Source of the DNA: Microglena sp. YARC
Taxonomy: Eukaryota; Chlorophyta; Chlorophyceae; Chlamydomonadales; Chlamydomonadaceae
Reading direction: 5' to 3'
Length of the DNA stretch: 64,000 bases
Assembly (NCBI GenBank): GCA_022414725.1
Contig: CM039463.1
Location: 59,010,051-59,074,050, forward strand
Shown in pieces: positions 27,343-58,891 of this stretch. The position numbers and the translations under genes were made by a program. Position 1 is the first letter of the stretch. Each line of letters starts with the position of its first letter. The notes beneath the pieces were generated by a model, which was not told the DNA's origin, ran no database searches, and saw only the letters and a list, made by a program, of their open reading frames with translations.

Positions 27343-28430
<1,088 letters not shown>

Positions 28431-35846: not shown

Positions 35847-35924
35847 AAATGTAGTGCCGGAGGGGTGCTCAGGGGTATCCGGATCAGAAGTAGTTGCATC
35901 TTCTTGTTGGTCTCCACTACTGTG

Positions 35925-36080
35925 GGTAACCTGCAGAGTGGGGGAGTTTCCTATCTCTGAGACAGTGTGGAGGACAGGATCATCAGCAGGAGTGGGGTCA
36001 TGCTCTCGTTGGTCTCCACTACTCTGGGTGTTCTGCAGAGTGGGGGTATTTCCTACCTCTGAGACAGTGTGGAGTGCAGG
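35925..36080. repeat. Two-copy ~107-bp tandem repeat inside the LTR element
   Basis: TTGGTCTCCACTACT, CTGCAGAGTGGGGG and CTCTGAGACAGTGTGGAG occur twice about 107 bp apart. Confidence 0.8.
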
Positions 36081-36275
36081 CTAGTCAACAGGATAGGGCA
36101 GAGGACTGGATATCTTACCCTCAATCATGGCGTCCCGCTGCTTGATCAGGTCTTCTTTCCATTCTGGGTACCACCCAGGGAGATGGGCATCCGGGTGGAC
36201 AGGGGGCACCTCAGGTGCAGCGGATGCCTGGTCTCCAGGTTGGTCAAGCATCTTAGCAGGATCATCATCGCCTAT

Positions 36276-36995: not shown

Positions 36996-37596
36996 GGTGG
37001 TGCGTCGGTGCAAGGGAAGAGCAGTTTGAGGGGAAAGTTGGGGAGTGGGGAGTAGTAGATCTGGGTAGAGTATAAAAACTCAAGACCTGGGGTACGTGTA
37101 CTTGAGGGGTGGGACGGCGGAGGTTGCAAGCAACTGGAGTGAGGGTGTGAGGAGGGTTTGGGAGGGGGAAGGGTTGGAGGTGGAGGCCAACTGTGGAGAG
37201 ATCTGGAGAGATGATAGGTCAGGAGGTGGTTGAGAACGGCTGAGGTTGCTTACGCAACGGGACGTGGGAGATGGGGAGGGGTGTGTGTGTGGGTGGGTGG
37301 GTGTGTGTGTGTGTGGGTGTGTGTGTGTGGGGGGGGGGGGCGCAGTGGTCTTGGAGATGTGTTGTCAGTGGGGTTTGCTGGAAGATAGCTTGAGGCTCAA
37401 TGGAGCATAATCAATCCGAACGCGGATGATGGTTGCGCACAAGAAAAGGTATTCCAACGGGGAGGTTCTTGTCGCAGGGATGGAGAGCCTTACTCGATCC
37501 TTTCAAATGTAGCGTTCCGCACGATAACAATCAAAATGTCCTTTGCTCGGGATACCGTTAAAGCAAGGCCAATCTAAAGCGAATGGGACCGTAACC

Positions 37597-38292: not shown

Positions 38293-40412
38293 GTAGTCGG
38301 CTAGGTTGCCCCAAAAAGTCTTCGTGCCATTTCCATTCACAAAGGTTCTGAATGTGTCAAGTGTAGAGTTGTAGTCTTGTAGATGGTCCTATTCTCCAAT
38401 AAGCCAATAATATTTTCTCTTACTACAACATTAAGTCATCAGATACGCGCCCTTAAGATGAAAGCTTTGGATCACAAGGAACATATAATGCTGTGCACAA
38501 TAATTGGATATCCTCTTCGTGAGATAAGTGTGGTTAACCTTAGATGCCTTCTTATTTCCCAATCTGGGAGTAAATAAAATTGATCTTCTGCATTACCTGA
38601 TGTGCAATCCAGATTCCAGAAGTGGAAGGTCGAGCGAAGCTTCGTAATTGAAATTGAAATTGTTACATCCCAGTAATGTACCACTCTCAGGACGTGAAGT
38701 TAAGGACACCACTGCGTAAGCCGGAGCTAGCAGTAGTCACCATAAAGCTTCGTAGCTTCCTCTGCTTGTCCACGAATGTATGGAGAGATTGGATCCCTAT
38801 TTTGATAACAATGCTTGGGTTTTGATTGTTTTGATAACGATTTCATTCCCCTAGTGATTAATGCCACTGCCGAAGACGGCGAGCAGCCAAATTTCTGGCT
38901 GGATCTATGTAACCAAGTTCAAGTTACTGCCACAAGCCTAACATAGTCTAATCCGAAGTATCTGGAAATTGACACGGCCAGCTTTCCAGAACTGCTGATA
39001 TCTTAGGGCGTAGCTTAGGTCGTCGTCAACCGCAATGGTAGCTTGTCCAGTTGAGGTAGGAGACCGCTCCCCACCCGAGTACGACGGGCTCCCTTAATAC
39101 CACGCCCCACCAGGCGTTATCATTACTTTTTTTTAGGGCGTAGCCCAGTGGCTGGATTAGGAGGTGAGGGGGAGGTGTGCGTGTGTGTGGGGTGGGGGTG
39201 GGGGCTTGGTTTATGGGTGGGGAGGGGGGGAGTGATGGTGGTGGGTGTGTGGGACGGGGGGAGTCATGGTGGTGGGTGCTTAAGAGGGTGGGGAGGGGGA
39301 TACAAATGGCTGCGTGTACTTACATTACGTTCATAGATATTCATGGACATGCCCGAGTTGACCCAAGAAAAGACCTATTTACAACTTCCATGCTTCTAAT
39401 CATCCTCACAATCACAGGTTACAAACATAAAGAACAACATAAAAAAAAACTGACCGCCCTAATCAACTTGAGGTGACCAGCCCACGCCGCGGGTTCATGC
39501 GGAGGTGGCGTGAGGCAAAGGCTCCGGTGTGGGGGCTCAGCTACATTCAGGGCAGTAACAAAGACAATAAGGAAGCGCGCTGCCAGGCATCATTGCTGGC
39601 TTCCTAAATCCTACAATTCAACGAGCCCAGGGCTTGTCTTTTCAGTTTTTCTGAGCAGCTTCTAGACAGCTCCCCAAGTCAGCCACTGTGCTACACCCAA
39701 ATATTTCAGCACTTCTGGACAGCTGATTGTGTCAGCTTCAAGGTGCACTAGGTGACTAGGAAAAGTTAGTTTTAGCTGAATACCAAGTCAGGGGAGCCTA
39801 GACTTGTCTCTAAACAGTACACACCCATGTGATTGCACACAGCATTTAGCAGTACAGTGCTGTTAACATTTGGATACCCCTGGACAGTACAAATACATAC
39901 ATGCAAACTAAACTGCTGTATAAGGAGAGCGGGCTGACTATGATACATAACTACACTGTTTCTTTTTGTAGCTACTCAGTACAGCTTCTAGGCAGCTCCC
40001 TTTCCCTGTCCTTGGGCCAAACCTGAATCTAGGTAGTGAATCTGAAAGCTGTCATGACAGGTATTCCTATGCAGATGAAAGCTTCAGGATTGACCCAGCG
40101 CCTGGCGCATGGAGCTGACTGGAAGCTGCCATGCGTACCCCCCCCCAAAAACAATACATAACTATATGTCCAGAGGATGATCTTCAAGGAATTGGGTTGG
40201 AACCAGTGGCTGGCTGTTGGAGCTGAAGGGAGCTGCCATAGTAGCAAAAAAATGAAACACTTCTCCTACTTCTCCTACTTCTCCCCCCACTTTGCTTTTT
40301 TGCGCCTGCAACACCTTGTGTACTGCTGGCTGGCTTGTGTTCTGCTGGCTGGCTTGTGAACTGCTGGCTGGCTTGTGTACTGCTGGCTGGCTTGTGTTCT
40401 GCTGGCTGGCTC
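38293..40412. other. No gene seen; several retroposon ends
   Basis: Holds the CAATTT-tailed unit (38646-38750, minus), an (AAGTTC)n-tailed unit (38868-38938, plus), a LINE-like 3' end with CACGCCCCACCAGGCGTTATC (39011-39125, plus; other copies 44900-44965 and 49769-49878), a GTGGGTGGG-rich tract (39160-39300) and a unit at 39984-40080 like 4970-5060. The last 400 bp are 3' flank of the NTF2-like gene. Confidence 0.6.
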
Positions 40413-40452
40413 CTACTTCTCCCCCCACTTTGCTTTTTGCGCTTGCAACACC
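40259..40452 (-). repeat. Duplicated last-exon end and CTGGCTGG repeats
   Basis: CCCCCCACTTTGCTTTTT with TGCAACACC occurs at 40282-40317 and 40419-40452; the right copy contains the real stop of the NTF2-like gene (40413-40415). Between them are five 18-20-bp CTGCTGGCTGGCTTGTG units (40322-40410). Confidence 0.75.
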
Positions 40453-43400
40453 TCATCCATGGAGCTATTCTTCTTCTTACTGTCTGACAGTATCTCGGAT
40501 TTGCTCTTGCTGCTGCGGCAGTACACTTGGGTAGAGCTGTGTTTCTGCTGCCCCACCATCACGGATGACGTGATGTGCAGGTGGCCATCCTAAGGGGGGA
40601 AGGAGGGATAGTGTAACTGGTGGGTGGGTGGGGTGGGGTGGGTGAGGGGGTGGGGGTACTGAGAGGGGGCAAGGTTGGGGAGGCGGGGTGGTGGGTGGTT
40701 GGGGTAGAGCTGTGTTAATGCTACCCCACCATCATGGATGAAGTGATGTGCAGGTGGCCATCCTGAGGGGAGGAGGAGGGGAAAAGCCAAAGGGTCTTGC
40801 CCGTCATCCGCCCCTTCCCCCCCATCCCTTCCTCTACATTCCTCACCGCATCCCATACCGGCGTGGCAGCTTACCTCACGAATGTCGTACTCCTCTTGCA
40901 AGCTTCCAGCCAAAGGGTCTTCCCACTTCATGTCGACCCTCACGCCGCCGCTAGGAAGCTGCTCAGCAGTTGCATGCTGGCTACCCGAGCGCAGGTCACG
41001 GCGCATGAGGTTCACACTTTTTCCAAACCTGTGGGTGCCAGACGTGGGTTTGGGGATAAGGCTCAGGGTTGAGCAGTTTAAGTGTTCATGACCGAGGTGG
41101 TGCTGTGGTTCACGTTATATATCAAGGGTGCGTGTGTAAGGCGTAAGTGGTGAGTAAAACCTACATCCTAGACCCTAGTACATCTGCTTGTACTTCTCTG
41201 CATGTCTCTGAAGTAGAGCAAGGTTATAGAAAACCTGAAACCTGGTGAACCTACATGTACTTCTCAGTGACCATGAAGACAGGCACAACGGTTATGGTGG
41301 GAAACCCTGAACCCTGGTGTACCCACTTGTACTTCTTAGTGACCCTGAAGAAGAGCATGATGGTGATGGTGTGATACCCTGAACCCCAAATCCTGGTGTT
41401 TACCCCCCCTTGTACTTCCCAGAGACCCTGAACCCTACAAGCTGGTGTACCTACTTGTACTTCCCAGAGACCCTGAAGAAGAGCACAGTGGTGATGGTGT
41501 GAAACCCTGAACCCGAGACCCTGGTGTACCTACTTGTACTTCTCAGTGACCCTGAAGAAGGGCACAATGGTGATGAAGCTGATGCTCAGTTTCTCGTGGG
41601 GAGTGTGCTCAAGCTGAAGGCCGTCAATGAGACGTGCTGTCACACGTTGCAATCCAGACAGCATCAGCACATCCATCATCTTTACGTATCCCTCGGCATC
41701 AGACAGCTCTGTCTCTTTCACCCAGATGCCTGCACACACATGATCAAGAGGATAGGGCATGTTGGGATAGGGATAAGGGGTAGGGATGCATGATATGATT
41801 TATAGCTGTCTCTTTCAACCAGCTGCCTGCACACACATGATCAAGAGGATAGGGCATGTTGGGATAGGGATAAGGGGTAGGGATGCATGATATGATTTAT
41901 AGCTGTCTCTTTCAACCAGCTGCCTGCACACACATGATCAAGAGGATAGGGCATGTTGGGATAGGGATAAGGGGTAGGGATGCATGATATGATTTATAGC
42001 TGTCTCTTTCAACCAGCTGCCTGCACACACATGATCAAGAGGATAGGGCATGTTGGGATAGGGATAAGGGGTAGGGATGCATGATATGATTTATAGCTGT
42101 CTCTTTCAACCAATGGCCTGCACACACATGACCAAGAGGATAGGGCATGTTGGGATAGGGATAGAGATAGACTAGTATAGAAAATAAAATCTGTCTCTTT
42201 CACCCCAATGCCTGCTCACGTGATCAAGAGGATAACATGTGTTGGGATAGGGGTAGCAAACTATCATAGGGATGGGATGCATTATGGCTCTGTCTCTTTC
42301 AGCCAAATGCCTGCAAACACATGATCAAGAGGATAGGGCATGTTGGGATAGGGATAAGGGGTAGGGATGCATGATATGATTCATAGCTGTCTCTTTCAAC
42401 CAATGGCCTGCACACACATAACCAAGAGGATAGGGCATGTTGGGATAGGGATAGAGATAGACTAGTATAGAACATTAAATCTGTCTCTTTCACCCCGATG
42501 CCTGCTCGCGTGATCAAGAGCATAACATGTGTTGGGATTGGGGTAGCAAACTATCATAGGGATGGGATGCATTATGGCTCTGTCTCTTTCAGCCAAATGC
42601 CTGCACACACATGATCAAGAGGATAGGGCATGTTGGGATAGGGATATGATGATAGGGATAGTACATACATTTGATAGGGGTAGCATACGAGGATAGGGAT
42701 GGGATGCATCACAGCTGTCTCTTTCATCCAAATGCCTGCACACACATGATCAAGAGGATAGGGCATGTTGGGATAGGGATATGATGATAGGGATAGTACA
42801 TACATTGGATAGGGGTAGCATACTAGGATAGGGATGGGACACATCACAGCTGTTTCTTTCATCCAAAAGCCTGCACACACATGATAAAGGGGATAGGGCA
42901 TGTTGGGATAGGGATGTAATGATAGGATAGGGATGCATAACAGCATGACATAAAGTACTACACACACCTACATGCACTGACCTGAAAATTTGATAGCCGC
43001 AGAACCTTCCATGCTGCCCGCAAAGCTAGCTACCTCAAACTTTTCATCACTCTACATGGAACCCCTCAACATACAACTACTCGACACACAACCCTGTTAG
43101 TGACGAACTTTACATCTGGTATAAGCACTGACCTGAAAAGTTGATAGCCGCAGAACCTGCCATGATGTCCACAAAGCTAGCTGCCTCAAACATCTAATCA
43201 CTCGACATAAGAGCACTACATACAACTACTCGACATACAAGCACTACATGCGACTCCTCTACTTATCACTCAACATAAAACCCCTCTTCGTACACGCACT
43301 GACTTGAAAAGTTGATGGCCGCAGAGCCTGCAATGATGTCCACAAAGCTAGCTGCCTCAAACATCTAATCGCTCTACATACAACTACTCAACATACAAAC

Positions 43401-46139
43401 CTGCACGTGCCGAGCTATACATACGGTATACGCACTGACCTGAAAAGTTGATGGCCGCAGAGCCTGCCATGCTGTCCACAAAGCTAGCTGCCTCAATCTT
43501 CTCATCACTCTACATACAACCCCTCAACATACAACTACTCGACACACAACCCTGTTAGTGCCGAGCTATACATACGGGATGAGCTATACATACGGGATAC
43601 GCACTGACCTGAAAAGTTGATGGCCGCAGAGCCTGCCATGATATCCACAAAGCTAGCGGCCTCAAACTTTTCATCGCTATCATCTCCTGAGTGAAACGAA
43701 AAGTCACATAACAGCATGTCTTCTTCAAACGTGTCTGTTACAGTGCTGCTGCTGCTGCCGTCCACCCTAACTCTGTTGTCGATGATCTCAACACCTGATA
43801 CGATGAAACAATGTAAGGAAACAAAATTAAAACAACGTTACAAAAGAAAAAAACTTTTCTTCCGCATCCTGTTGACATTTTCCCGTAGTAAATGCATTTT
43901 TGCAAGACGGTGAGCAACCAAATTGATGGCTGATGCAATGTTACCAAGTTCAAGTTCAAGTTCAAGACCTTCTTCTTCTTTGCTCGGGGGGACTTCCGTG
44001 GGCATGGCAAGGGAGGACGCTATGAAGGAGAGTTGGTGGAGTGAGGAAATTCATGACGAGACACAGTGAACATTTTCAAGTTCAAGTTCTCACAACTTCT
44101 TGGCAGGTCTCTCATGGGTAGGGTTGGGCCGACAAATAAACGTATAAGATACGTTCATACGTTTATACGTATAAATACGCCGTTTAGTTTTTCTCAAATC
44201 GACCTTATATACGCCGTATACAAAACGTATTGTCTGTACTTTGAGAAGTACAGCACACGTCCCGGCACTTCACTTTCTTGGTTTTCATTATATTTTTGAT
44301 CTAGATAGCTCATTGGAAAGCTTTTGATCTCCTCATAATATGCCATACAATTCACCGTTCACATGCACAATTTTATAAACATTGGGTCTGAAGGTTGATC
44401 TAGATAGCCAGGATGGCACACATATCAGAGCGCCACCTAGCCTTCCATTCCACAAGCTGTGCTCCTATGTGGGCTTGAAGGATTGATGGAGCAAGCCTAG
44501 TGCAATGTGAACATGGACAATATTGCAATACCGTTATGTACTTATATTATTATACACTTATACAGTGATATAATAGACCAAATGGCATTTAATGACCCCC
44601 TTAGATTGGCAACGCCGCACGTCTTGGCCGACGCGCTTTCTTTTCTGGTCGTGATTTATTTTCTGAGAATTGGACAACCTAAACTTGCCAGATTATTTTT
44701 CTGAGAGTTGATATGTGATGCCAATGAAATTAGCTACGCTGCAATACCTTTAAACCCATGTAAAGTATTTTCTCAAGAAGTGCCTAATTTTTATATACGT
44801 TTTCATACATTTATATGCATACGTTTATACGTTTATACATTTATACGGCTTAAAAAAATAAAAATATACGTTTGCTTCCCAACCCTACTCATGGGTAAGT
44901 ATCAGCCCGTTCCCTACAGCCGGAAGACACGGCTCCCTTAATACCACGCCCCACCAGGCGTTACACAAATTATACATGAATTATACACGAATTATCATTA
45001 TTATATTATACATGAATTAAATTATACATGAATTATACATGAATTAAATTATACATGAATTAAATTATACATGAATTATACATGAATTAAAATATACATG
45101 AATTATACATGAATTAAATTATGCATGAATTATACACGAATTATCATTATCATTACTTTGTCTCAAGTTCAAGTTCTCACCACTTGGCAGGTCTCTCATG
45201 GGAATTGACACCCCACGTGGGGCTGCCGCCGGGGCGCTGCCACGGCAGCAGCGCGGCGCTGGTACTGAGGGCCGCCCCCCCCTGGGTGGCGCGGACCTGT
45301 TGGACGCAGCTGGTCCCTGTCCTGATGGCCAGGCTGGTGCTGAGGCGGGGGAGGAGTACCTTGGTTGATGGGCGCGGTCTGATGATGGGCTAAAAGGGAA
45401 GTTGACTTGGAAAGGGGACTTGACGAAGCTACTGATGGGCTGTTTGAGGAGGGATAGGGGTCCGGCTGCCCAGCCTGGGAGGGCACTGGAGAGGGAGGCT
45501 CTCTCGGAGAAGGGGATGATGTTGCCGCTGTCGCTTTGCATGAAGCTGTAGGGAGGGGTGGGGGGGGGCATGAGTGAATTGGGAGGGAAATGTGTGTGTG
45601 TGTGTGGGGGGGTGGGGTGGGGGGTGGGGACATCTATCGAAGAAAGGGAGGATGTTGCCAGTGTCGCCTTGCATGAAGCTGAAGGGAGGGGGGACGGGGA
45701 GGGGGGAGGGGGGAAGATGAGTGAATTGGGGGAGGGAAATGGGAGGGAAATGTGTGTGTGTGTGTGGAGGGGGGGGGGGGGGGGGAGGGGACCTCTATCG
45801 GAGAAGGGAAGGATGTTACCGCTGTCGCCTTGCATGAAGCTGAAGGAGGGGGGGGGGGGGAGGGGGGGAAGGAGCATGAGTGCATTGGGGGAGAGGAGGA
45901 GGGAGGAGGGGGGGGGGGGGGGGGATCGGAGAAAGGGGATGGGGAGAGTATTCAGAAATACCGGAGTAGGGGGGAAAGCGGACAACATGTTGCTTTTTTT
46001 ACACATATGACTTGGAAGCAGATCGCGACGACGCATCAATTGTGAACTGGCGATGCGCGCGGCAGGGCGGAAAATCGTACAAAGTCAGTAGTACAATACC
46101 GCCACCGCAATTGATGATATCTCACATCGACACTACCAA

Positions 46140-46178
<39 letters not shown>

Positions 46179-47117
46179 GGGGGGCAAGGAAAAAGATTTC
46201 GTACCGCACGTTCGATATGGATAGAGAACCGCCGAGCAATAGTCGATACAAAAAAAAATCATGTCGATACACCCACGGGCGGCAGAGATACGAGGGGGGG
46301 GGGGGGGGGGGGGGTCCGACCGTTTTCCCAATTTTATTTGTACCTCGTGTAACTTTCTTGCCAGTGCGAATTTTGAGCGTGACGTACACCATTGAGAAGT
46401 CTCGACGAGAGGAGTACAAACCTGAAGTCGTTAGTTAGTGACACCAAGGGTGTAATTGGTGAAATCTCCTGGAAGGTACATCCAGGCTGGACGCCAGGCT
46501 GGACGTCACCCAGACCTTCGCGTCCAGCTTGAACGAGCGGCAGTTGGGCGGAAAAAGGCAGCGCGCAACGCGTTCTGAATTCCGGTCCCCTACCGTACGA
46601 AGTTCCTAAAGCAGTCGAGCCTGGGTTCGAGCACTCGAGCCCCCCCCCCCCCCAACCCCCACCCCCCCACACCTTCCCCCCCCTCCCCCCCCCACACCCA
46701 CCCAAAACACACACACCACCCGAGCCGACCATTTCAGGCTCCAGAATACAAGTTGAGTAGATCAAGCCATGATAATGATGATGATAAAGATAAAAAAGAC
46801 AGATAAATAACGCCTTCAGTCGATTTTCGTGATCTCCTCCTAGGGCGCGGACGACTGCTGAGCGCCCAAGAAAGTTGTAAAAATACTAAAATCTAAATTA
46901 CTTTGTCCGAACTTGATATTTATAAATTTTGGTTGTATGGTTGGAAAGGCCTTGCCGAGATGATGCTCATGGACCCCCCTTTCACTATGTAATACTGTCT
47001 GGGTGTCTAGATATGAGGTCTCAAAGAGGGGGAGGGGGGGGGGGGGGGGGGGGGAGGGGGTCAAAATAACAACTTCCGAACGTGCAGTCTGCCAACTTTA
47101 TTCCTGCCCCCCCCTCG

Positions 47118-47184
<67 letters not shown>

Positions 47185-50100
47185 TGTTTCATTATTGTTT
47201 CATTGCCGCTTTGAAGCTGGGGTGATTTATTTTGTAATAATGTAGTTCTTCAAGTTTGAATTGAAGAACTACGTCATGACAAAATAACTCACCCAACCCC
47301 ATAGCGGCAGGGAAGACAGCAGGCAGCGCAGCCTTGAGGAAAGAAGATCCCAGGGACAGCGCGGGTAGTGCCATTGACAAAACTTGCTCAGGACTGTCCC
47401 TGATGTACACTAGCTTGCCGTCTTGGCCGACCTTGTACAGACCCTGTAAAGAACCCAAATCAACTTGAACAACTACATCACCATATAACTCACCCTAGCT
47501 CCATAGCAGCAGGCAAGACAGCAGGCAGCCTTGGAAGACCGCAGGTAGCCATAAATACCCCCCTCCCCCCCCCCCCAAGTTTAGCTTTCGCTACTTTTGA
47601 CCCCATTTTGGCCCCAATTGCCGCTATAAAGAACCCAAATCAAGTTGAACAACTTCATTACCATATAATTCACCCCAGCTCCATGGCAGCTGGCCATACA
47701 CCTTGGAGAAAATAGCTGTGAAGCACTCTTAAAAAATTGTAAAAAAAAAACTCGAGAAGTACAACAAAGCTCACTCCAGCTCCATAGGGGCAGGCAACAC
47801 AGCCTAGAGAAAATAGCTGTTAAGCACTCTTAGTAAATTGTAAAAAGAAAAACTCGAGAATTACAACATAACTCACCCCAGCTCCATAGCGGCAGGCAAG
47901 ACAGCCTGGAGAAAATAGCTGGTCAGGACTGTAAATTAATTGTAAAAACAAAACTTGAGAAATACAAAATAGCTCACCCCAGCTCCATGGCAGCAGGCAA
48001 GACAGCAGGCAGCGCAGCCTTGAGGAAAGAAGATCCCAGGGACAGCCTGGAGAAAATAGCTGTTCAGGACTGTTAATTAATTGTAAAAAAACTTGAGAAT
48101 AAAAAAGTAGCTCACCCCAGCTCCATGGCAGCTGGCAAGACAGCAGGCAGCGCAGCCTTGAGAAAAGAAGACCCCAGGGACAGTGCGGGTAGTGCCATTG
48201 ACAACACTTGCTCAGGACTATCCCGGATGTACACAAGCTTGCCGTCTTCGCCAACCTTGTACAGACCCAGTCCACGCGACATAGGCAGGTGGATACCCTC
48301 AAGCTCCAAGTGCCTAAATAGGATGCACGGTATGGATGTCAAGTTCAAGTTCCAAGTGCCTATATAGGATGCACGGTATGAAGGTTGATGTTCCTGCCCA
48401 AGACGGCGAGCACCCACAATGGTTGGAGACATGCAAACAAGTTCAAGTTCTGAGTTACAAGGCCTAAGCTCCAAGTGCTTATATAGGATGCACGGTATGA
48501 ATGTTGCTGTTCCTGTCCAAGATGGCGAGCAAAACCAAATTGGTTGGAGACATGCAAACAAGTTCAAGTTCTGAGTGAAAAGTCCCAAGCTTCAAGTGCC
48601 CATATAGGATGCACTGTATGAATGTCAAGTTCTGAGTTATAAGTCCAAAGTTACGAGCCCAAGTTAAAGTTTGTGACATGCAAACAAGTTCCAACACCCA
48701 GGTGCTCACCATGCAATGCCCACAGCATCTCCTCCATCTACTACAGCACAAGCACCTCCTCCTCCTACAGCACAAACTCACACTTTACTACGAACACCTC
48801 CACACCACCACCACCACTACACTACCACCACACACCACCACCACCCATCACGCCACTAACACCACCACCACCCAGGTGCTCACCATGCAATGCCCACAGC
48901 ATCTCCTCCATCAACGACATCCTCCAGCACAAATACAGCGCCATCAGGGATGCACGGGAGGGTGTTCATATAAAACCGTTGCACTGCTGCCTTTGTGCTG
49001 AGCATCGTGTTGAGGGCACGGTTCTCGTAGCTGCGTGGACAGGTGTGTGTGTGGAGTGTGTGTGTAGGTGGGTGGGGAGGGTGTGTGTGTGTGTGTGGGG
49101 GGGGGAGAGGGTGTTCATGTAGAATCGTTGAACCGCTGCATTGTGCTGAGCATCGTGTTGAGGCACGGTTTCATGTAGCTGCGTGTGGCAGGTGAGTGTG
49201 TGTTTTGTGTGTGTGTGTGTGTGTGTGTGCGTGTGTGTGTGTGTGTGGGGGGGTGTTCATGTAGAACCGTTACACCACTGCTTTATGCTGAGCATCATGT
49301 TGAGGGCACGGTTCTCGTAGCTGCACGGGACATGTGTGTGTGTGTAGGGGGGGGGGGGGGGGGGGATAATAGGATGGGTGCCATTTCCAAATCAAAGACT
49401 GCTATTCAGAGGCATGGTTCTCGTAGCTGCATCGAACAAGAGCCGTGTTTTTGTGTTTCAGATTTCTGTAGGCCAGGTTAAGTAGTAGTACTTAGGCTAC
49501 TCAAGCCCGATTTCAGCATTGTTGCATAAACATTGCATGACAGAGTGCCAAAAATGGAGCCCAGAGGGGTCGTGCAAAACCATGCAATGACAGAATGGCG
49601 ACGCAGTTGGAACGCATCATCGGATTTTTTTGGATAAAGAGTAATCAAGGTTGGTGGGCAGGGAAGGGAGAGGTAAGGCAGGTTGGCGAGGGATCCCTCA
49701 ACCTGTTCATTTCCTTTTGTCCATGCCTTTTTCATCTTTCCTTCCCTTTTGTCCTTACCCTGTCCCCAGGTTGTCGTCAACCGCGATGGTAGCTTGTCCA
49801 GTTGAGGTAGAAGACCGCTCCCTACCCGCGTACGACCGGCTCCCTTAACACCACGCCCCACCAGGCGTTATTATTACCCAGTCCCTACGTCACTGAATCA
49901 GCCCTCATGCTGAACACCTTGGCCAGGTCTGTTTGGCTCAGTGCCGGGATACCGTGTATAGGCTGCCCACCTCTGTCCTTCCCTTCTTATCCCATTTCCC
50001 TTCCCTTTGACCTCTTCCCCTTCCTTGTCCATTTCTCTTGTCCCCTCCCCTTCCCTTGTCCACTTACATCACTGAATCGGACATCATGCTCAACACCTTC

Positions 50101-53100
50101 TCCTTGGCTCAGTGCCGGGATACTGTGCATAGGCTGCCCACCTCTGTCCCTACCCTCTTATCCCATCTCCCTGGTTCCCTCCCCTTCCCTGCCCTCTTTC
50201 CCCATTCCCTTCCCATGTCCACTAACATCACTGAATAAGCCATCATGCTCAACACCATAGCCAAGTCTGTTTGGCTCAGAGCCGCGGTACTGTGTATAGG
50301 CTGCCGCCCTCTGCCCCTGTTCCCCTGTCTCCATCCCTTGTCCATTTCCCTTGAACCATTCCCTTCCCTTGATCCTTTCCTTTCCTTTCCCTGTCCTCGT
50401 GTCCCTTACCCTTCCCTTGTTCCCTTCCTTTCCTTGTCCTCTTATCCATTTCCCTTCCCTTGCCCATTTCCCTTGTCCCATTCCCTTCCCTTGTCCATTT
50501 CCCTTCACTTATCCACTCACATCACTGAATCAGACATCATGCTGAACACCTTGGCCAGGTCTCTTTGGTTCAATGCCAGGATACCGTGTATAGGGTTGTC
50601 ACCCTATACCCTGCCCTCATGTCCCATTCCCTTGTTCGCTTCCCTTCCCTTGTTCCCTTCCCTTCCCTTGTTCCCTTCCCTTCCCTTAACACTTACATTA
50701 CTGAATCGGACATCATGCTGAACACCTTGGCCAGGTCTCTTTGGTTCAGTGCCTGGAAGAATTGTGTGACTGTGTCTGTCGCAGAGGGCTCCAACACATC
50801 CTCCTGATACTCGCGCATCAGTTTCTCATACTCCGCACTGTATGGCTCCAGGTTCCAGTACGTCTGCAGCAATGGAAGCGTTTGTTTTCGTGCTTGTGGT
50901 GGTGGTGGGTGGTGATGGTAACAGAGGGTTCCAACACATCCTCCTGATACTCGAGCATCAGGTTATCAAACTCCGCACTGTATAGCTCCAGGGTCCAGTA
51001 TGTCTGCAGCGATGGAAGTGTTTGTTTAGAGGTTGTGGTGGTGATGGTAACAGAGGGCACTAACACATCCTCCTGATACTCGTGCATCAGATTCTCATAC
51101 TCCGCACTGTATGGCTCCAGGTTCCAGTAGGTCTGCAGCAATGGACGTGTGTGTTTAGTGGTGGTGGTGGTGGTAGTGGTGGTGGTGACGGCAACAGAGG
51201 GCTCCAACACATCCTCCAGATATTCGCGCATCAGATTCTCATACTCCGCATTGTATAGCTCCAGGGTCTAGTATGTCTGCAGCAATGGAAGAGTTTGTTT
51301 AGTGGCTGTGGTGGTGATGGTAACAGAGGGCACTAACACATCCTCCTGATACTCGTGCATCAGATCCTCGTACTTCGCACTGTATGGCTCCAGGGTCCAG
51401 TATGTCTGCAGCAATGGACATGTTTGTTTGGTGGTGGTGGTGGTTGTGGTAGCAGAGGGCACTAACACATCCTCCTGATACTCGTGCATCAGATCCTCGT
51501 ACTTCGCACTGTATGGCTCCAGGTTCCAGTAGGTCTGCAGCAATGGACGTGTTTGTTTGGTGGCGGTGGTGGTGGTTTGGTGGTGGTGGTTGGTGGTAGC
51601 AGAGGGCTCTAACAACACATCCTTGGTTTGGTGGTGGTGTTTGGTAGTGGTGGTGGGTTTGATGGTGGTGGTGGTTGGTGGTTAGTTTCTAGTCGTGATG
51701 TTTTTTGGCGGAGCCTCCCCTTCTGGGGGCAGGAGTCCCCAGGGTCATCCAGTTGTCCGTTTGTTTGTTTGTTTGTTTGTGCGACTAATGTGCTACGGAA
51801 ACGAAGCCTGACATGTCAGCCAGCAGTCTCGTAACTAACTTACTTCAGTCCAAATCAATCCAATGATCGCAATCCATAAGGGGGAAGGCATTGACACTGC
51901 GTATAGAGAACATACACAGACACACACAATAGCATGCACACACACACAAACTAACACAAGGGCGCCCATGTGCGCTAATCTACAAGGGACCAGGCATGGA
52001 CAATGCATGTATAGAACATGCATGCACACACACAAAACACACACATTCTCACACACACACAAACAAGCCCCTACCACCACCACACACACACACACCACAC
52101 ACACACACACACACAACCCCCCCCCCCCCACACACACACACAAACCAAATAAACACGAACACAAGGACGCCCATGCGCGCCAATCCACAAGGGGTCAGGC
52201 ATGGCCACTGCGTATAGACCACACATAAACGCACACACAAACACAAACTCAAGGACGCCTATGCGTGCGTATGCAAAAGGGGGCAGGCATGGACAATGCA
52301 TGTATACAGCATGCATGCACACACACACACACACACACACATCAACACAAACTCAAGAACGTCTATGCGTGTGCATGCACAAGGGATCAGGCATGGACAA
52401 TGCATACTTAGGTAGGGAACGGCAAAATGACATCATATGATATCATGTCCTCATATGATATCATATGATGCCAGCAGTCTGACTAGGCTAAAGTCTATGT
52501 ATATAAAATATCATATGATGCAGTTTGCATGATATTGTATGATGCAGTTTGTATGTTATCATATGATATCAAAATCGCCTTTGGTCTACATCATATGATT
52601 TGCTGGTCCCTACATATAAATGGTATACATAACAATGATAGTACAAGAACATACATCGGTTTGTGATTTGACCACTGCTGGGTACTGTCTCTCCAGGCTG
52701 TCCAGCGCACTCAGGCGCTCAAGAATTGCCTGAAATGCAGCTCCACCCGCGCCTTCAGCCCAGATGGAAAGAAACGAGTCACACGTTCCTTGCTAGGAAT
52801 GTGTGGCATGTTCCTTACCATCCGAGCTGAAGGCGCGGGTTGAAGCCGCACTTCGACCACTTCTTGAGTGCCCCTGAGCGCGTTTGAGAAGTTCCTGCAA
52901 TGCGGCTCCACCCGCGCCTTCAGTCCAGATAGCAAGGGACCAGCCATACGTTCCTTGCAAGGAATGTGTGGCATGCTCCTTACCATCCGAGCTGAAGGCG
53001 CGGGTGAAGCCGTACTTGGACCATTTCGTGAGTGCCTCTTGAGCGCACTGAAGACGTGCCTGCAATGCGGCTCCACCCGCGCCTTCAGTCCAAATGGCAA

Positions 53101-56100
53101 GGAACGAGCCAAACGTTCCTTGCAAGGAATGTGTGGCATGCTCCTTACCATCCGGGCTTAAGGCCCGGGTAAAGCCGTATTTGAACCATTTCAATGATGA
53201 GCAAACAGATTTGTCAACAATAGCCTTTCCGCCAACCAGTATCCACCTTTCCCACACTGGGCAGGTGTGTAAGGGGGGTACTCAAACTCAGTGCCCCCCC
53301 ACTCACCCTCATCGACACACCCCACACAAAACACACTACCAGCATCACCACCACCACCAGCATCTGCACCTTGTCCAAGAAACAAGGAACACAATTTCAC
53401 TGGCATTCAGATATTAAATTGCTTCTCTAGGCTCCAGAAGTACCTGAAATGCGGCTCCACCCGCGCCTTCAGCCCAGATGGAAAGGAACGAGCCACACGT
53501 CCCTTGCAAGGAATGTGTGGCATGCTCCTTACCATCCGAGCTGAAGGCGCGGGTGAAGCCGTACTTGGACCATTTCAACGATGAGCAAACAGATCTGTCA
53601 ACAATAGCCTTTCGGCCAACCAGTTTCCACCTCTCCCACACTAGCAGATGTGTGTGAGGGGGGTACTCAAACTCAGTGCCCCCGCCACACACCCACACCC
53701 ACATCGACACACCCCACACCACACTACCAGCATCACCACCACCAGCAATGTCTGCACCTTGTTGAAGAAACAAGGAACAACCCATCAGTGGCATTTAGAT
53801 ACTTGTTTGCTTGATGATCAAACGAATCTATCAACCCTGGCCTTTCAGACAACCAGTATCTACCTTTCCCACACTGGCAGATGTGTGAGGAGGGGGAGGT
53901 ATTCAAACTCAGTCCTCCCCCCACACACCCACACCCACACAAAACACACTACCAGCATCACCACCACAACCAGCTTCTGCACCTTGTCCAAGAAACAAGG
54001 AACACAATTTCACTGGCATTCAGATAGTAAATTGCTTCTCTAGGCTCCAGAAGTACCTGAAATGCGGCTCCACCCGCGCCTTCAGCCCAGATGGAAAGGG
54101 GCGAGTCACACGTTCCTTGCACAGAATGTGTGGCATGTACCTTACCGTCCGAGCTGAAGGCGTGGGTGAAGCCGTACTTGGACCATTTCATGAGTGCATT
54201 GGAGCACGCTTGAGAAGTGCCTGCAATGCGGCTCCACCCGCGCCCTCAGCACGGATGGGAAGGACAAGTCACACATTGTTTTGCAAGGAATGTGTGGCAT
54301 GCTCCTTACCATCCGAGCTGAAGGCGCGGGTGAAGCCGTACTTGGACCATTTCGTGAGTGCCTCTTGAGCGCACTGAAGACGTGCCTGCAATGCGGCTCC
54401 ACCCGCGCCTTCAGTCCAAATGGCAAGGAACGAGCCAAACGTTCCTTGCAAGGAATGTGTGGCATGCTCCTTACCATCCGGGCTTAAGGCCCGGGTAAAG
54501 CCGTATTTGAACCATTTCAATGATGAGCAAACAGATTTGTCAACAATAGCCTTTCCGCCAACCAGTATCCACCTTTCCCACACTGGGCAGGTGTGTAAGG
54601 GGGGTACTCAAACTCAGTGCCCCCCCCACTCACCCTCATCGACACACCCCACACAAAACACACTACCAGCATCACCACCACCACCAGCATCTGCACCTTG
54701 TCCAAGAAACAAGGAACACAATTTCACTGGCATTCAGATATTAAATTGCTTCTCTAGGCTCCAGAAGTACCTGAAATGCGGCTCCACCCGCGCCTTCAGC
54801 CCAGATGGAAAGGAACGAGCCACACGTCCCTTGCAAGGAATGTGTGGCATGCTCCTTACCATCCGAGCTGAAGGCGCGGGTGAAGCCGTACTTGGACCAT
54901 TTCAACGATGAGCAAACAGATCTGTCAACAATAGCCTTTCGGCCAACCAGTTTCCACCTCTCCCACACTAGCAGATGTGTGAGGGGGGTACTCAAACTCA
55001 GTGCCCCCGCCACACACCCACACCCACATCGACACACCCCACACCACACTACCAGCATCACCACCACCAGCAATGTCTGCACCTTGTTGAAGAAACAAGG
55101 AACAACCCATCAGTGGCATTTAGATACTTGTTTGCTTGATGATCAAACGAATCTATCAACCCTGGCCTTTCAGACAACCAGTATCTACCTTTCCCACACT
55201 GGCAGATGTGTGAGGAGGGGGAGGTACTCAAACTCAGTCCTCCCCCCACACACCCACACCCACACAAAACACACTACCAGCATCACCACCACAACCAGCT
55301 TCTGCACCTTGTCCAAGAAACAAGGAACACAATTTCACTGGCATTCAGATAGTAAATTGCTTCTCTAGGCTCCAGAAGTACCTGAAATGCGGCTCCACCC
55401 GCGCCTTCAGCCCAGATGGAAAGGGGCGAGTCACACGTTCCTTGCACAGAATGTGTGGCATGTACCTTACCGTCCGAGCTGAAGGCGTGGGTGAAGCCGT
55501 ACTTGGACCATTTCATGAGTGCATTGGAGCACGCTTGAGAAGTGCCTGCAATGCGGCTCCACCCGCGCCCTCAGCACGGATGGGAAGGATAAGTCACACG
55601 TTGTTTTGCAAGGAATGTGTGGCATGCTCCTTACCATCCGAGCTGAAGGCGCGGGTGAAGCCGTACTTGGACCATTTCGTGAGTGCCTCTTGAGCGCACT
55701 CAAGACGTGCCTGCAATGCGGCTCCACCCGCGCCTTCAGTCCAAATGGCAAGGAACGAGCCAAACGTTCCTTGCAAGGAATGTGTGGCATGCTCCTTACC
55801 ATCCGGGCTTAAGGCCCGGGTAAAGCCATATTTGAACCAGTTCAATGATGAGCAAACAGATCTGTCAACAATAGCCTTTCCGCCAACCAGTATCCACCTT
55901 TCCCACACTGGGCAGGTGGGCACACTAGCAGATGTGTGAGGGGGGTACTCAAACTCAGTGCCCCCCCCCACACACCCACACCCACATCGACACACCCCAC
56001 ACCACACTACCAGCATCACCACCACCAGCAATGTCTGCACCTTGTTGAAGAAACAAGGAACAACCCATCAGTGGCATTTAGATACTTGTTTGCTTGATGA

Positions 56101-58891
56101 TCAAACGAATCTATCAACCCTGGCCTTTCAGACAACCAGTATCTACCTTTCCCACACTGGCAGATGTGTGAGGAGGGGGAGGTACTCAAACTCAGTCCTC
56201 CCCCCACACACCCACACCCACACAAAACACACTACCAGCATCACCACCACAACCAGCTTCTGCACCTTGTCCAAGAAACAAGGAACACAATTTCACTGGC
56301 ATTCAGATAGTAAATTGCTTCTCTAGGCTCCAGAAGTACCTGAAATGCGGCTCCACCCGCGCCTTCAGCCCAGATGGAAAGGGACGAGTCACACGTTCCT
56401 TGCACAGAATGTGTGGCATGTACCTTACCGTTCGAGCTGAAGGCGCGGGTGAAGCCGTATTTGAACCATTTCAATGATGAGCAAACAGATCTGTCAACAA
56501 TAACCTTTCCGCCAACCAGTACCCACCTTTCCCACACTGGGCAGGTGTGTGAGGGGGGTACTCAAAATCACTCGCAAAATCACTCCCCCCCCCCACCCAC
56601 CCACCTACCCACACACACACGCACACATAGACAAACCCCACACTACCAGCATCACCACCACCACCAGCATCTGCACCTTGTCCAAGAAACAAGGAACACA
56701 ATTTCACTGGCATTCAGATATTAAATTGCTTCTCTAGGCTCCAGAAGTACCTGAAATGCGGCTCCACCCGCACCTTCAGCCCAGATGGAAAGGAACGAGC
56801 CACACGTCCCTTGCAAGGAATGTGTGGCACGTTCCTTACCATCCGAGCTGAAGGCACGGGTGAAGCCGTACTTGGACCATTTCAATGATGAGCAAAGGAA
56901 TCTGTCAACCCTGGCCGAAAGGCCAACCAGTATCCACCTTTCCCACACTAGCAAATGTGTGAGGGGGGTACTCAAACTCAGTACCCCCTAACACATAAAC
57001 ACACACACCACCCTACCAGCATCACCACCACCAGGTGGTAGGCTGCTAATGTCTACAGCAATAACATCAGAAGTAAAACCATTATTTCAATGAAAAAATC
57101 CTCTTTATCCAATCTCAAGCTTACAAAATGTCCGTAGTATACCCTAGGGAGGATGAACAAGATAAGTATGCTTGAGGTTGGATCAGGTGTAGTTTTTCAA
57201 TGAAGCAATGGTTTCAAAGTTGATGTTACTGCTGAAGACTGTAAGCAGCCTCAACAGGCTGGAGCCATTTAACCATGAGTACAAGCATGCTTTCACACTT
57301 GCTCGAGCACAGGTGCATATGTGCATAGGAGGTGGGCAACCAGCCTTTGTCCAGATATTAACGGACACACATGCTTGTACACAGTACACCTCGGTACAAG
57401 ACCGTATCGCATGTAGACAAGAACGTACGTCGGTTCGCGCTTCGACCAATGCTGGGTACCGACTCCCCAGGCTTCCCAGCGCGCTCAGGCGCTTAAGAAG
57501 TGCCTGAAATGCGGCTCTACCGGCGCCTTCATCCCAGATGGCAAGGAACGAGCCACACGTTCCTTGCAAGGAATGTGTGGCATGTTCCTTACCATCCGGG
57601 CCAGAGGCGCAGGTGGAGCCGTACTTGGACCATTTCTTGAGCGCCTCTGGGCGCACTAGAACGGCATCCTTGTCGCTTGTGGGATCTTCAACGATGGATA
57701 GTAGGACTTATGTAGGCGTTAACCAAGTTAAATCGTTGGGTGGGAACAGGTGGGAACCAGTGGAAGCCGGCGCCATGAAGGACGTGACACGTGGATGGCT
57801 GTCGGACGCGCATGCATGTGCAAGTCCAAGGCCGAGGCAAAGAACCACGCAGTATGGGACGCGAGGAACACCGTGGGTGAAGTGATTGATCGATAATGTC
57901 TGCGAGTTCTATGGATGTCCATACCCAGGACAGATCATATCTAGGGCACGTGGGTGCATGGAGATCTTGCGTGCATGTAATGGCTACCGGCTACAGTTCG
58001 TTTTCGACCAGCTCAATGGCTCGGACAGCATTAGGTGACAAACGCGTTCACGATGAGCAAACGGATCTGTCAACCCCGGCCTTTAGGCCTGGTCGGGCTT
58101 TTTGCGATGCTGTCGACCCATCGGGTTGAAGGCATTGAGCAATTTTCTTACATCGCACGATAGGGACGAACAAACGAGCGAAGCGGGCAGCAGTTTATTT
58201 TTTCCTATGGTCGTCTATGCTTTCGCTTGCACGCCAAGGCGGTTGGAATGTATCGGGACAATCTGTCCGGACAAAAAAACTGCCTCGACCAACATCGTGA
58301 CATGGTGAATCGACAAATGGAAATTTCTCACTAGACAGATGAGACAGCAATCTGTTGTCTTTTGTTTGTGATGCTCGCGAGTCATCCCCCTTGAGGCCCT
58401 CAATATGCGAGGACATTTCGTGTCCAGTTGGGCAGCAGGATTATGCAGCCATCACCACCATACTCATCATCAAACTGTGGCTACGTGGCAGGCATTCAAA
58501 TGGGCTCAAGGTGGACAGTTCGGTAGCCCACATGACGGTTGGGATGTTCGAGGCTATGCGATGAGAAAATAGCTGCAGAAAGATAAGCGCAAGCAGTGCC
58601 TCTTACCTCAATGGCCAAAGCCCTAGCCTTCCTGAGCTTTGAGCTTTTGGAGCTGGAGGCATTTGGCTTTGATAATCCACCGTCGAGGCCCGTCTTGGCA
58701 GCAGCACAGCAAGCTACATTGTTGCGCCTGATCTCTGTGAGGGAATTAAGAGCACTTGCATGTTGGCCGGGCTTAATTGAGGGAGCCACGAGGCAACATG
58801 TAGGGTTCGCCGCTTTAGAGCTGCTGCTGCCGCTGCTGCAGCTGCCCCTGCTACTTAGAGCGTTTCTGTGTCTCAGCAATGACGCATTCAT
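40413..58891 (-). CDS. Plastid-targeted NTF2/SnoaL-like protein with C-terminal lipocalin-like domain
   Basis: Eleven exons, 678 aa, all phases agreeing: 58607-58891, 57593-57668, 52655-52740, 50697-50863, 48884-49030, 48116-48313, 45181-45545, 43609-43794, 41534-41729, 40875-41028, 40413-40589. Residues 1-60 look like a transit peptide (MNASLLRHRNALSSRGSCSS). Residues 178-300 fit an NTF2/SnoaL-like fold: TDTVTQFFQALNQRDLAKVF, AAVQRFYMNTLPCIPDGAVF, VDGGDAVGIAWHLELEGIHL, YKVGEDGKLVYIRDSPEQ. Residues 320-442 are a Ser/Pro/Ala linker. From about 495, FSGIWVKETELSDAEGY, LIDGLQLEHTP, TIVPFFRVTEKYKFG, NLMRRDLRSG and VDMKWEDPLAG suggest a lipocalin/fatty-acid-binding-like barrel. No enzyme activity can be assigned; pigment or lipid binding is only a guess. 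Exons 2-3 are the weakest: their splice sites lie in a palindromic array, and CAG/GCA at 52729 is an out-of-phase alternative. Almost every intron carries copies of the adjacent exon edges. Confidence 0.75.
40640..40765 (-). repeat. Echo of the exon 11 acceptor edge
   Basis: GTAGAGCTGTGTTAATGC and GATGTGCAGGTGGCCATCC repeat the real exon start (40530-40590) with several substitutions, next to GGGTGG-rich filler. Confidence 0.8.
41200..41533 (-). repeat. Echoes of the exon 9 donor edge, 4 copies
   Basis: CTTGTACTTCTCAGTGACC or CTTGTACTTCCCAGAGACC, followed by CTGAAGA and GAGCA, recurs near 41263, 41328, 41410 and 41455 before the real edge at 41534. Each has the donor-like TACAAG/GTAG on the minus strand. 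Confidence 0.85.
41790..42965 (-). repeat. Echoes of the exon 9 acceptor edge, about 11 copies of ~95-150 bp
   Basis: Each unit contains CTGTCTCTTTCA(A/C)CC and A(T/G)(G/C)TGCCTGCACACACATGATC on the plus strand, that is the (G)IWVKET codons and the CAG acceptor, then GATAGGGCATGTTGGGATAG. Copies become less regular to the right. The real exon edge is at 41705-41760. Confidence 0.88.
42975..43608 (-). repeat. Echoes of the exon 8 donor edge, 4 copies of ~150 bp
   Basis: ACCTGAAAAGTTGATGGCCGC, AGAGCCTGCCATGATGTCC and CACAAAGCTAGCTGCCTC (codons of ASFVDIMAGSAAINFS) recur near 42980, 43132, 43303 and 43438, each with its GTCAGTGC donor. The fifth, at 43607 on, is the real exon. Confidence 0.9.
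43900..43968 (+). repeat. (AAGTTC)n-tailed retroposon end
   Basis: AAGACGGTGAGCAACCAAATTG, ATGGCTGATGC, then ACCAAGTTCAAGTTCAAGTTC. Same family as 10231-10307. Confidence 0.6.
44119..44887. mobile_element. AT-rich hAT-like element with perfect 8-bp target duplication
   Basis: Inverted ends TAGGGTTGGG / CCCAACCCTA, extended by (A)AACGTATA words; target duplication CTCATGGG at 44111-44118 and 44888-44895. 769 bp, no transposase frame. The interior is full of TATACG and CGTATA words in both orientations. It sits in an echo of the exon 7 donor edge (GGCAGGTCTCTCATGGG). Confidence 0.85.
44966..45150. repeat. AT-rich (ATTATACATGAATTA)n tail
   Basis: About ten irregular units of TTATACATGAATTA following the LINE-like 3' end with CACGCCCCACCAGGCG at 44900-44965; probably the tail of that insertion. 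Confidence 0.7.
45546..45960 (-). repeat. Echoes of the exon 7 acceptor edge, 2-3 copies, with GGGGG filler
   Basis: CTTGCATGAAGCTGAAGG with GTCGC and GATGTT(A/G)CC(G/A) words recurs near 45650-45685 and 45805-45845, duplicating the exon 7 start (FMQSDSGNIIPFSER codons, real edge at 45500-45548). Poly-G and GTGTGT filler lies between. Confidence 0.85.
46144..46175. repeat. (TA)n microsatellite
   Basis: About 15 TA units in intron 6 of the NTF2-like gene. A second run is at 47119-47182; poly-G runs at 46296-46314 and 47034-47054. Confidence 0.9.
47285..48115 (-). repeat. Echoes of the exon 6 donor edge, about 7 copies
   Basis: CTCACCCCAGCTCCATAGCGGCAGG-like starts recur near 47288, 47490, 47670, 47770, 47873 and 47976. 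The 47290-47450 copy is the longest, still open over GLYKVGQDGKLVYIRDSPEQ and the following residues. It even has TTTACAG and GTGAGT sites, so it could be spliced as an alternative exon. Confidence 0.85.
48314..48640 (-). repeat. Echoes of the exon 6 acceptor edge, 3 copies, with retroposon ends
   Basis: CTCCAAGTGCCTAAATAGGATGC at the real edge (48305-48327) recurs near 48353, 48471 and 48592, each followed by ACGGTATGAA and, in two cases, by an (AAGTTC)n-type unit. Confidence 0.8.
48700..48883 (-). repeat. Echo of the exon 5 donor edge
   Basis: CAGGTGCTCACCATGCAATG and CCCACAGCATCTCCTCCATC at 48708-48747 repeat the real edge at 48874-48917. ACCACC filler lies between. Confidence 0.85.
49080..49450 (-). 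repeat. Echoes of the exon 5 acceptor edge, 3 copies
   Basis: GTGTTCATGTAGAA with TGCTGAGCATCGTGTTGAGG and GGTTCTCGTAGCTGC recurs near 49111-49185, 49253-49325 and (short) 49412-49435, duplicating the YENRALNTML codons at 48960-49035. GTGTGT and poly-G filler separates them. Confidence 0.87.
49769..49878 (+). repeat. LINE-like 3' end
   Basis: GTCGTCAACCGCGATGGTAG, CTTGTCCAGTTGAGGTAG and CACGCCCCACCAGGCGTTAT, matching 39011-39125 and, in part, 44900-44965. Confidence 0.65.
49885..50690 (-). repeat. Echoes of the exon 4 donor edge, 4 copies
   Basis: CATCACTGAATC(G/A) with CATCATGCT(G/C)AACACC, TTGGCCAGGTCTGTTTGG and GATACCGTGTATAGG recurs near 49890, 50069, 50225 and 50520, then the real edge at 50697. 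Each keeps the AT/GTAAGTG or related donor on the minus strand. CCTTCCCTTGTCC filler between copies. Confidence 0.88.
50880..51640 (-). repeat. Echoes of the exon 4 acceptor edge, 6-7 copies of ~100-120 bp
   Basis: Copies of the TYWNLEPYSAEYEKLM codons with CTGCAG before them; on the plus strand CTCCAGGGTCCAGTATGTCTGC. Units 50930-51231 and 51268-51618 stay open across exon plus filler on the minus strand. One copy near 51268 has a TAG in the place of the Trp codon. Confidence 0.88.
52741..57600 (-). repeat. Array of 14 ~120-bp near-perfect palindromes from the exon 2/3 junction
   Basis: Dyad centres (TTGCAA) lie near 52785, 52950, 53116, 53500, 54113, 54276, 54440, 54828, 55438, 55600, 55766, 56397, 56808 and 57560. 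Each unit has CGGCTCCACCCGCGCCTTCAG on one side and its inverse CTGAAGGCGCGGGTGAAGCCG on the other, with no spacer at the centre CCTTGCAAGG. By eye roughly 85 percent of positions pair. The minus strand reads TRAFSSDGKEHATHSLQG, the plus strand TRAFSPDGKERATRSLQG. Donor GTAAGG (minus) and the exon 3-like acceptor lie within the arms. Confidence 0.9.
53021..55671. repeat. Two 1.325-kb tandem units of the palindrome array, third partial to the right
   Basis: The phrase CCATTTCGTGAGTGCCTC falls at 53021, 54347 and 55672, giving periods of 1326 and 1325. Units 1 and 2 are nearly identical over their whole length. The third copy lost about 370 bp after 55915. Each unit carries four palindromes and spacers with GATGAGCAAACAGATCTGTC and CACACCCACACC. 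Confidence 0.9.

Follow-up and report, generated by a model that had tools for sequence, protein, structure and literature searches.

Tandem copies of exon-intron junctions in the introns of several genes of the green alga Microglena sp. YARC

In several genes of Microglena sp. YARC, tandem duplications make up the bulk of the introns, and many of them run across an exon edge. In a SnoaL/NTF2-like gene within the 64,000-nucleotide stretch of contig CM039463.1 that we analysed (the window), 14 of the 18 splice junctions have a local copy, with 1 to 12 copies each, and at least one end is echoed in each of the nine introns. We consider it probable that these introns grew by local tandem duplication and that the copies are neutral relics carrying splice-site sequence.

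The SnoaL/NTF2-like gene lies on the minus strand (40413-58891 of the window) and has ten exons in a model that we rebuilt by means of splice phases; its exons match two EukProt predictions for the same locus, P0001 and P0002. Exon 1 (58607-58891) carries the start codon and a serine-rich N-terminus, and its later part is found in P0001; the gene starts upstream of the interval assigned to it by the first-pass annotation (40259..52740). Exons 2 to 5 lie at 52655-52729, 50697-50863, 48884-49030 and 48116-48313, and exons 7 to 10 at 43609-43794, 41534-41729, 40875-41028 and 40413-40589, the last with the stop codon. Exon 6 (45181-45545), present in P0002, was identified because exons 5 and 7 were out of phase with each other; a model lacking it was rejected, since exon 5 was out of phase and adding exon 6 restored the phase. 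The public prediction split this locus into two genes and read copies as exons, several of them in P0001, which is a gene prediction and not RNA. The exon numbers of the first-pass annotation are higher than ours, which probably reflects array copies further upstream taken for exons.

Junction copies were sought by blastn with a 120-nt query, a match being accepted only if it spanned the junction with E<=1e-4. Under this rule no copy was found for the exon-1 donor, the exon-7 acceptor or either end of exon 9; an earlier run within 3 kb, with the ends of exons 5 and 6 off by 1 to 7 nt, found copies for 13 of 18 junctions. A search blind to the exons recovered 14 tandem families in this gene, 13 of which hold exactly one junction, a different one each. 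Both searches thus bear out the initial proposal that junctions are tandemly copied into the introns. The copies sit on the intron side, with the exon-2 donor as the one exception, its sole copy being the far end of a whole-exon copy 4.8 kb away.

All these families lie on the minus strand. The exon-2 acceptor family occupies 52715..57636 in intron 1, with units of ~165 bp nested in units of ~1.3 kb and 12 junction-spanning copies, and includes the whole exon-2 copy (near 57417-57563). At exon 3, the acceptor family (50778..51623) has 5 copies of a ~130-140-bp unit in which exon makes up as much as 86 nt, and the donor family (49886..50757) has 3 junction-spanning copies and one shorter. The exon-4 acceptor family (48956..49347) has a ~142-bp unit and 2 copies, and the donor a single duplicate (48691..48919). 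For exon 5 there are 3 acceptor copies of a ~121-bp unit (48300..48691) and, by the strict rule, 4 junction-spanning donor copies (47261..48271), one of them nearly the whole exon (~47308-47443). The exon-6 acceptor has 2 copies (45488..45925), and its donor a duplicate (44076..45202) with 1 copy, 1.08 kb away. Further along, the exon-7 donor family (42969..43678) has 3 copies by the strict rule and 4 by a laxer alignment, the exon-8 acceptor family (41706..42938) has 11 copies of a 97-bp unit with 24 nt of exon, the exon-8 donor family (41229..41575) has 5 copies, and the exon-10 acceptor was duplicated once (40529..40780). Apart from the whole exon-2 copy and the nearly whole exon-5 copy, which are larger, the exon content of most copies is 14-89 nt adjoining one splice site. 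For most copies identity is 73-98% across 30-120 nt, which rules out chance similarity. They had been described as decaying, and this applies to half of the families with at least four copies: identity drops with distance in four (rho -0.6 to -0.8) and not in the other four, six of the eight belonging to the SnoaL/NTF2-like gene.

The claim that each junction has a family of its own also held. None of the 12 families tested matched anything beyond its own array in the window and 37 fetched loci, and the three families compared with the whole 568-Mb genome, those of the exon-3 acceptor, exon-7 donor and exon-8 acceptor, matched at their own locus only. Dispersal across unrelated genes, as expected of introner-like elements, was not seen at either scale. 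A mobile or introner-like element carrying splice sites and inserted repeatedly is therefore highly improbable, all the more as the copies hold exon sequence of the very gene they sit in, although the unit of the exon-2 acceptor family has a long, nearly perfect hairpin (161 nt, folding at -97.9 kcal/mol) that resembles a miniature transposon in shape, and that family may include one. Collapsed or mis-joined repeats are a barely credible source of the pattern. The sequence is a single assembly and exact copy numbers in the arrays could be wrong, but the copies differ by a few to 27%, units and spacings are specific to each family, and the same kind of array occurs on other chromosomes (C1, C2 and C3).

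Junction copying is a property of this genome and not of one gene, since it also occurs in a HAD phosphatase gene of the window and in three CCT chaperonin genes elsewhere. In the HAD phosphatase gene, on the plus strand, 4 of 4 junctions are copied by the same blastn rule. The donor family of exon 1 (exon 43-180; family 142..2898) has 4 copies by the strict rule and 21 blastn matches including itself; the acceptor family of exon 2 (exon 4047-4219; family 2905..4097) has 6 copies of a 102-bp unit and runs into a 20-bp satellite; the exon-2 donor (4151..4667) and the exon-3 acceptor (6696..6967) have 1 copy each, exon 3 (6947-7035) being placed by phase and frame only. In the CCT genes 12 of 34 junctions are copied; this search used a laxer similarity cut-off than that of the window genes, so that the rates are not strictly comparable, whereas CCT junctions can be compared with their own background. 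One ambiguous acceptor of L035 was dropped from the CCT set, which retains three sites of weak score; no exons were found between HMM positions 364-392 (L034) and 103-138 (L035). Two further pieces, chosen for duplicated-looking HMM matches, contain an HSP70 acceptor with 5 copies and a CCT donor with 2. As a comparison, the gene for Mg-chelatase subunit H (11934..19000, minus strand) has eight exons and seven introns of 96-753 nt; none of its 14 junctions is copied by the blastn rule, and the exon-blind search found no tandem family in it. A close relative has a Mg-chelatase H with 91% identity to this one (P0012). That nearly every junction is copied, as first stated, is consequently true of the two array-bearing window genes (18 of 22) but not of the CCT genes or Mg-chelatase H (window genes against CCT, Fisher P 0.0009, with differing cut-offs).

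A coding-looking stretch at 34-37 kb of the window was rejected as a gene and judged a retrotransposon by a zinc-knuckle-like motif, which we take to be a mark of such elements; Pfam gave no match for two fragments of it. In 20 random 10-kb stretches of C1, tandem sequence covers on average ~25% of positions (range 1-83%); codon-model exon calls there were too unreliable to define junctions, and these stretches were kept only as background for tandem content.

The first-pass annotation pictured dozens of competing splice sites in one pre-mRNA. At the level of sequence these candidate sites, which may compete in RNA, are present: GT or AG is retained in 64 of the 68 copies of the two array-bearing window genes, and 53 of 65 copy sites score at least as high as the weakest real site in a small position matrix. 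It could be argued that the copies are functional, serving as alternative splice sites, as additional exons or as decoys that selection maintains to regulate the gene. In support of this idea, copies set beside the real junction retain the splice dinucleotide above the surrounding dinucleotide background (P 0.014 for donors and 0.0015 for acceptors), and P0001 includes several copies as exons. However, that comparison is biased, as the real site cannot change, and we set it aside after examining substitutions private to one copy. These are not depleted at the splice dinucleotides, where 2 were observed and 3.7 expected (P 0.29), and they show no bias among codon positions (18/811, 26/801 and 22/789; P 0.46). 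Moreover, 5 of the 54 copies with at least 20 nt of exon contain a stop and 4 a gap, and of the 65 usable copy sites just one would extend the exon in phase with an open frame. Differences between the real exon and its copies fall mainly on the third codon position (9.5, 8.0 and 16.5% at positions 1-3), which fits a constrained exon next to free copies. Nor do the copies resemble mutually exclusive tandem exons, in which an entire exon is copied together with its two splice sites and stays under coding constraint: most are partial and adjoin one site, and their private substitutions have no codon bias. Judged from these substitutions, the copies evolve like non-coding DNA, and their maintenance for a function is very unlikely.

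Whether exon edges are favoured places for duplication received a mixed answer, with no excess per position and an excess per family. The test suggested with the original claim, overlap with exon boundaries against expectation, did not uphold it: the 13 of 18 copied junctions of the SnoaL/NTF2-like gene compare with 10.7 +- 2.0 when the junctions are rigidly shifted (P 0.18) and with 10.0 +- 1.8 at random intron positions (P 0.08). Per position, 63% of the intron interior of this gene is copied, against those 13 of 18 junctions (P 0.47), and in the CCT genes junctions (35%) fall below intron positions (~51%; P 0.08) and above exon positions (21%). At the family level, the exon-blind search of the two window genes gave 19 families, of which 17 contain a single junction; no family has two junctions or is made of exon only. 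Sliding the families gives 4.1 expected with a junction (P 5e-12), and of the 23 families that could be placed in the CCT genes 12 hold a junction against 6.3 expected (P 0.007). This sliding null presumes that introns had their present lengths and that arrays are independent. Dust filtering, which removes simple-repeat arrays, these being intronic, also inflates the share of junction families. The family-level excess would suit a duplication aimed at splice junctions through some link with transcription or splicing, such as RNA-DNA hybrids at exon edges or replication conflict there, but junctions do not exceed intron interiors per position, and in the CCT genes the difference runs in the opposite direction. 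Taken with the limits of the sliding null, this leaves aimed duplication unlikely.

The first-pass annotation envisaged introns growing through local duplications that cross splice sites, and the pattern does look like this. We propose that repeated local tandem duplication of pieces of ~50-300 bp would lengthen introns that were short in the ancestor. A duplication wholly within an exon would alter the protein and be removed, while one across a single splice site would keep the original exon and junction at its outer end, add a junction copy to the intron and so be tolerated. Unequal exchange or slippage may then expand some copies into arrays, and splicing would normally ignore the decoy sites. 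The copying rate of CCT junctions, between the intron and the exon background, is what would be expected for the edge of tolerated territory. Neutral growth simulated from introns of 200-300 nt left 17.4 +- 1.5 or 15.9 +- 1.6 of 22 junctions copied, against 17 (family rule) and 18 (blast rule) observed; from introns of 450 nt, near the lengths in Mg-chelatase H, only 13.7 +- 1.8 were copied. The family-level excess thus needs either short ancestral introns or a junction preference. The 200-300-nt simulation also predicts 14-16 families, 2.6-4.7 of them merging both ends of an intron, where 19 and 0 were observed, and the lack of merged families is a point in favour of aimed duplication. A fuller version, in which duplication preferentially spans junctions through coupling to transcription or splicing, introns are lengthened from their ends and each expanding intron acquires a ladder of decoys that the spliceosome ranks by position, is slightly harder to credit. 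For its part, neutral growth can account for the lack of arrays in Mg-chelatase H only through selection or chance.

Tandem duplication is reportedly a route of intron gain, as in the Rogers AGGT model and the ATP2A1 case, and Zhuo et al. are said to have derived human introns from tandem arrays in 2007. The latter concerns intron origin; by its title it has tandem arrays in common with our case, where existing introns instead appear to have grown at both ends. A potato case of intron gain by tandem duplication is reported to have produced a new intron and exon that are spliced. With this case and the Rogers model ours seems to share the tandem duplication of an intron-exon segment whose splice signals are inherited from the parent; unlike the potato case, existing introns would have lengthened here, with the copies inside them and an open frame kept at 1 of the 65 copy sites. 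In human segmental duplications, De Grassi and Ciccarelli 2009 (PMC2812944) describe internal tandem repeats at exon-intron boundaries, and 27 intron modifications among recent paralogues, with RNA support, giving new or alternative introns. The units there cross the exon-intron boundary, as do ours, which hold exon, splice site and intron; here, in contrast, most junctions of single genes are involved, the copies lie inside existing introns and the arrays are described at the level of DNA. Fungal introner-like elements (PMC4457414) are repeated sequences with splice sites inside genes, dispersed copies of one element, whereas each family tested here is confined to its own junction. A literature search, with most subscription journals outside its reach, returned no report of a gene with such arrays at many of its junctions.

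Transposons usually get the credit for intron growth, whose early steps are lost. In this alga the steps are still readable in each family by comparison with its parent junction, and the rows of look-alike sites are most likely a by-product of intron growth and an unusually clear record of it. Since the public prediction took copies for exons and split the SnoaL/NTF2-like gene, many false exons may be present in gene sets from genomes of this kind. Furthermore, with rows of several to a dozen nearly identical junctions, this genome offers natural tests of how the spliceosome chooses one of them.

Local copies of splice junctions lying inside the adjacent intron, each with an exon edge, the splice site and some intron (echoes), were found by a single rule applied to all junctions at 14 of 18 junctions of the SnoaL/NTF2-like gene, at 4/4 of the plus-strand HAD phosphatase gene and at 0/14 of the Mg-chelatase subunit H gene. 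This result confirmed the echoes described for the SnoaL/NTF2-like gene in the first-pass annotation and, with the genes considered below, extended them to further genes. The family units are spaced ~45-300 bp apart and comprise an exon part of 14-89 nt (the query carried 90 nt of exon) plus intron beyond the splice site, with 1 to 13 copies per family under a laxer alignment; two copies take in almost an entire exon, one of exon 2 at about 57.5 kb and one of exon 5 at about 47.4 kb. An exon-blind self-comparison of each gene assigned 14 tandem families to the SnoaL/NTF2-like gene, of which 13 contain exactly one junction, all different, and five to the HAD gene, four with one junction; it identified none in Mg-chelatase H.

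The SnoaL/NTF2-like gene has 10 exons (40413-58891, minus strand) with splice phases consistent throughout, and its product contains a SnoaL_2 domain (3.5e-9, scored on the join without exon 6), a domain of NTF2-like fold. Ten related proteins were found. They include proteins of Volvox, Pleodorina and Chlamydomonas incerta, and two of the ten, EukProt P0001 (96% identical across 34% of the query) and P0002 (86% across 43%), are predictions for this same locus; these two represent one gene split in two, with array copies taken as exons. The Mg-chelatase H of the window was identical to EukProt P0011 across the 1022-residue query, implying that the EukProt set comes from the same or a very close strain of this chlamydomonad green alga. 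The window occupies positions 59010051-59074050 of contig CM039463.1 (C2) in an assembly that comprises 568,105,699 bases in 2390 contigs, and its GC content is 48.9%. The HAD piece matched pseudouridine-5'-phosphatase structures (9e-19), its third exon being placed by phase and frame alone. A 20-bp satellite at 2907-3438 resembles the intron sequence that leads into the HAD exon-2 acceptor, as though derived from the array there.

The echoes are not confined to this window. CCT chaperonin exons were located by profile, and three gene regions were taken among about 11 loci listed, a choice favouring compact genes; 5/12, 3/13 and 4/9 of their junctions were echoed. The copies lay to the intron side, and the splice dinucleotide was present within 2 nt in 24 of 31. 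Local copies covered 45, 51 and 58% of intron positions and 18, 25 and 20% of exon positions. Thirteen of 26 tandem families held a junction; for those placeable in an intron the count was 12/23 against 6.3 expected (P 0.007). Two further pieces, selected for duplicated-looking profile matches, showed five copies of an HSP70 acceptor and two of a CCT donor. Altogether, 30 of 70 junctions in the three window genes and the three CCT genes were echoed, with at least one echo in five of these six.

In the families compared, the arrays are not copies of one element. Three families searched across the whole genome matched solely at their own locus, in at least 5, 11 and 6 places (simple repeats skipped), and 12 families gave no match beyond their own array in the window and 37 loci. 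The exon-2 acceptor unit (52730-52890, minus strand) carries a long, nearly perfect hairpin (-97.9 kcal/mol as RNA over 161 nt), possibly a miniature transposon that multiplied along with the array.

Other repeats and coding-looking stretches were observed. A 73-bp array of nine copies at 29273-29918 has a unit with TTACAG followed by a G/C-rich stretch, and could be another acceptor array. The window also contains a TC/GA tract of about 500 bp (27797-28302), a retrotransposon-like coding stretch (34200-37300, minus strand) with what we presume to be a zinc-knuckle-like motif, and, in a coding-looking stretch on the plus strand (DSPSKNTSQQKGQHL), an in-frame 45-bp repeat of about six copies 97% alike (61016-61292). 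Elsewhere in the genome, the start of an open frame at 4177-5157 of the piece C1:176000001-176010000 resembles, by eye, a giant-virus major capsid protein; the region is possibly of endogenous viral nature.

In the two window genes, GT or AG was retained in 64 of 68 aligned copies. Real exons and their copies differed most often at third codon positions (90/946, 75/934 and 152/920), whereas substitutions private to one copy were even (18/811, 26/801 and 22/789, P 0.46), at a rate resembling that of intron sites (88/2793). Together, these data imply that the real exon is constrained and that the copies are without detectable constraint. Private substitutions at splice dinucleotides (2 observed, 3.7 expected) gave no indication of selection on the copy splice sites in either direction; these sites persist because the copies are young. 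In a position matrix built from just 18 donors and 18 acceptors, 53 of 65 usable-site copies scored at least as high as the weakest real site; an open in-phase exon extension was possible from one of the 65.

The first-pass annotation was to be refuted if repeats overlapped exon boundaries no more than expected, and this comparison went mostly against a junction preference. Local copies covered 1034 of 1653 sampled intron positions (63%) and 63 of 195 exon positions (32%) of the SnoaL/NTF2-like gene, and included 13 of its 18 junctions (72%), against 10.7 +- 2.0 expected under a rigid shift of the junctions (P 0.18) and 10.0 +- 1.8 at random intron positions (P 0.08). By contrast, 17 of 19 arrays in the two window genes touched a junction where 4.1 were predicted (P 5e-12), under a null that slid each array along the present intron, permitted up to 90 nt of exon and assumed independent arrays. 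The disagreement between the two tests arises from how fully the arrays occupy the introns. Had introns been short at the onset of duplication, most ~100-bp units would have crossed an intron end; a simple formula gives a starting length below about 200-250 nt for 110-140-bp units. Forward simulation echoed 17.4 +- 1.5, 15.9 +- 1.6 and 13.7 +- 1.8 of 22 junctions from 200-, 300- and 450-nt starts, respectively; the 200- and 300-nt runs misfitted in merged families (2.6-4.7 simulated, 0 seen) and total families (14-16 simulated, 19 seen). A preference for exon edges may exist but has so far not been required.

In the open-licence literature searched we came across no description of a gene with arrays at the majority of its junctions, or of such arrays genome-wide. 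Earlier reports describe tandem repeats spanning exon-intron boundaries in human paralogues (PMC2812944), a tandemly duplicated intron-exon segment in potato, there yielding a new intron (PMC4974935), and a mean intron near 0.8 kb in another chlamydomonad genome (PMC11228838). In summary, our results support the earlier interpretation of intron growth in Microglena sp. YARC, in which the echoes represent introns enlarged by local duplication.
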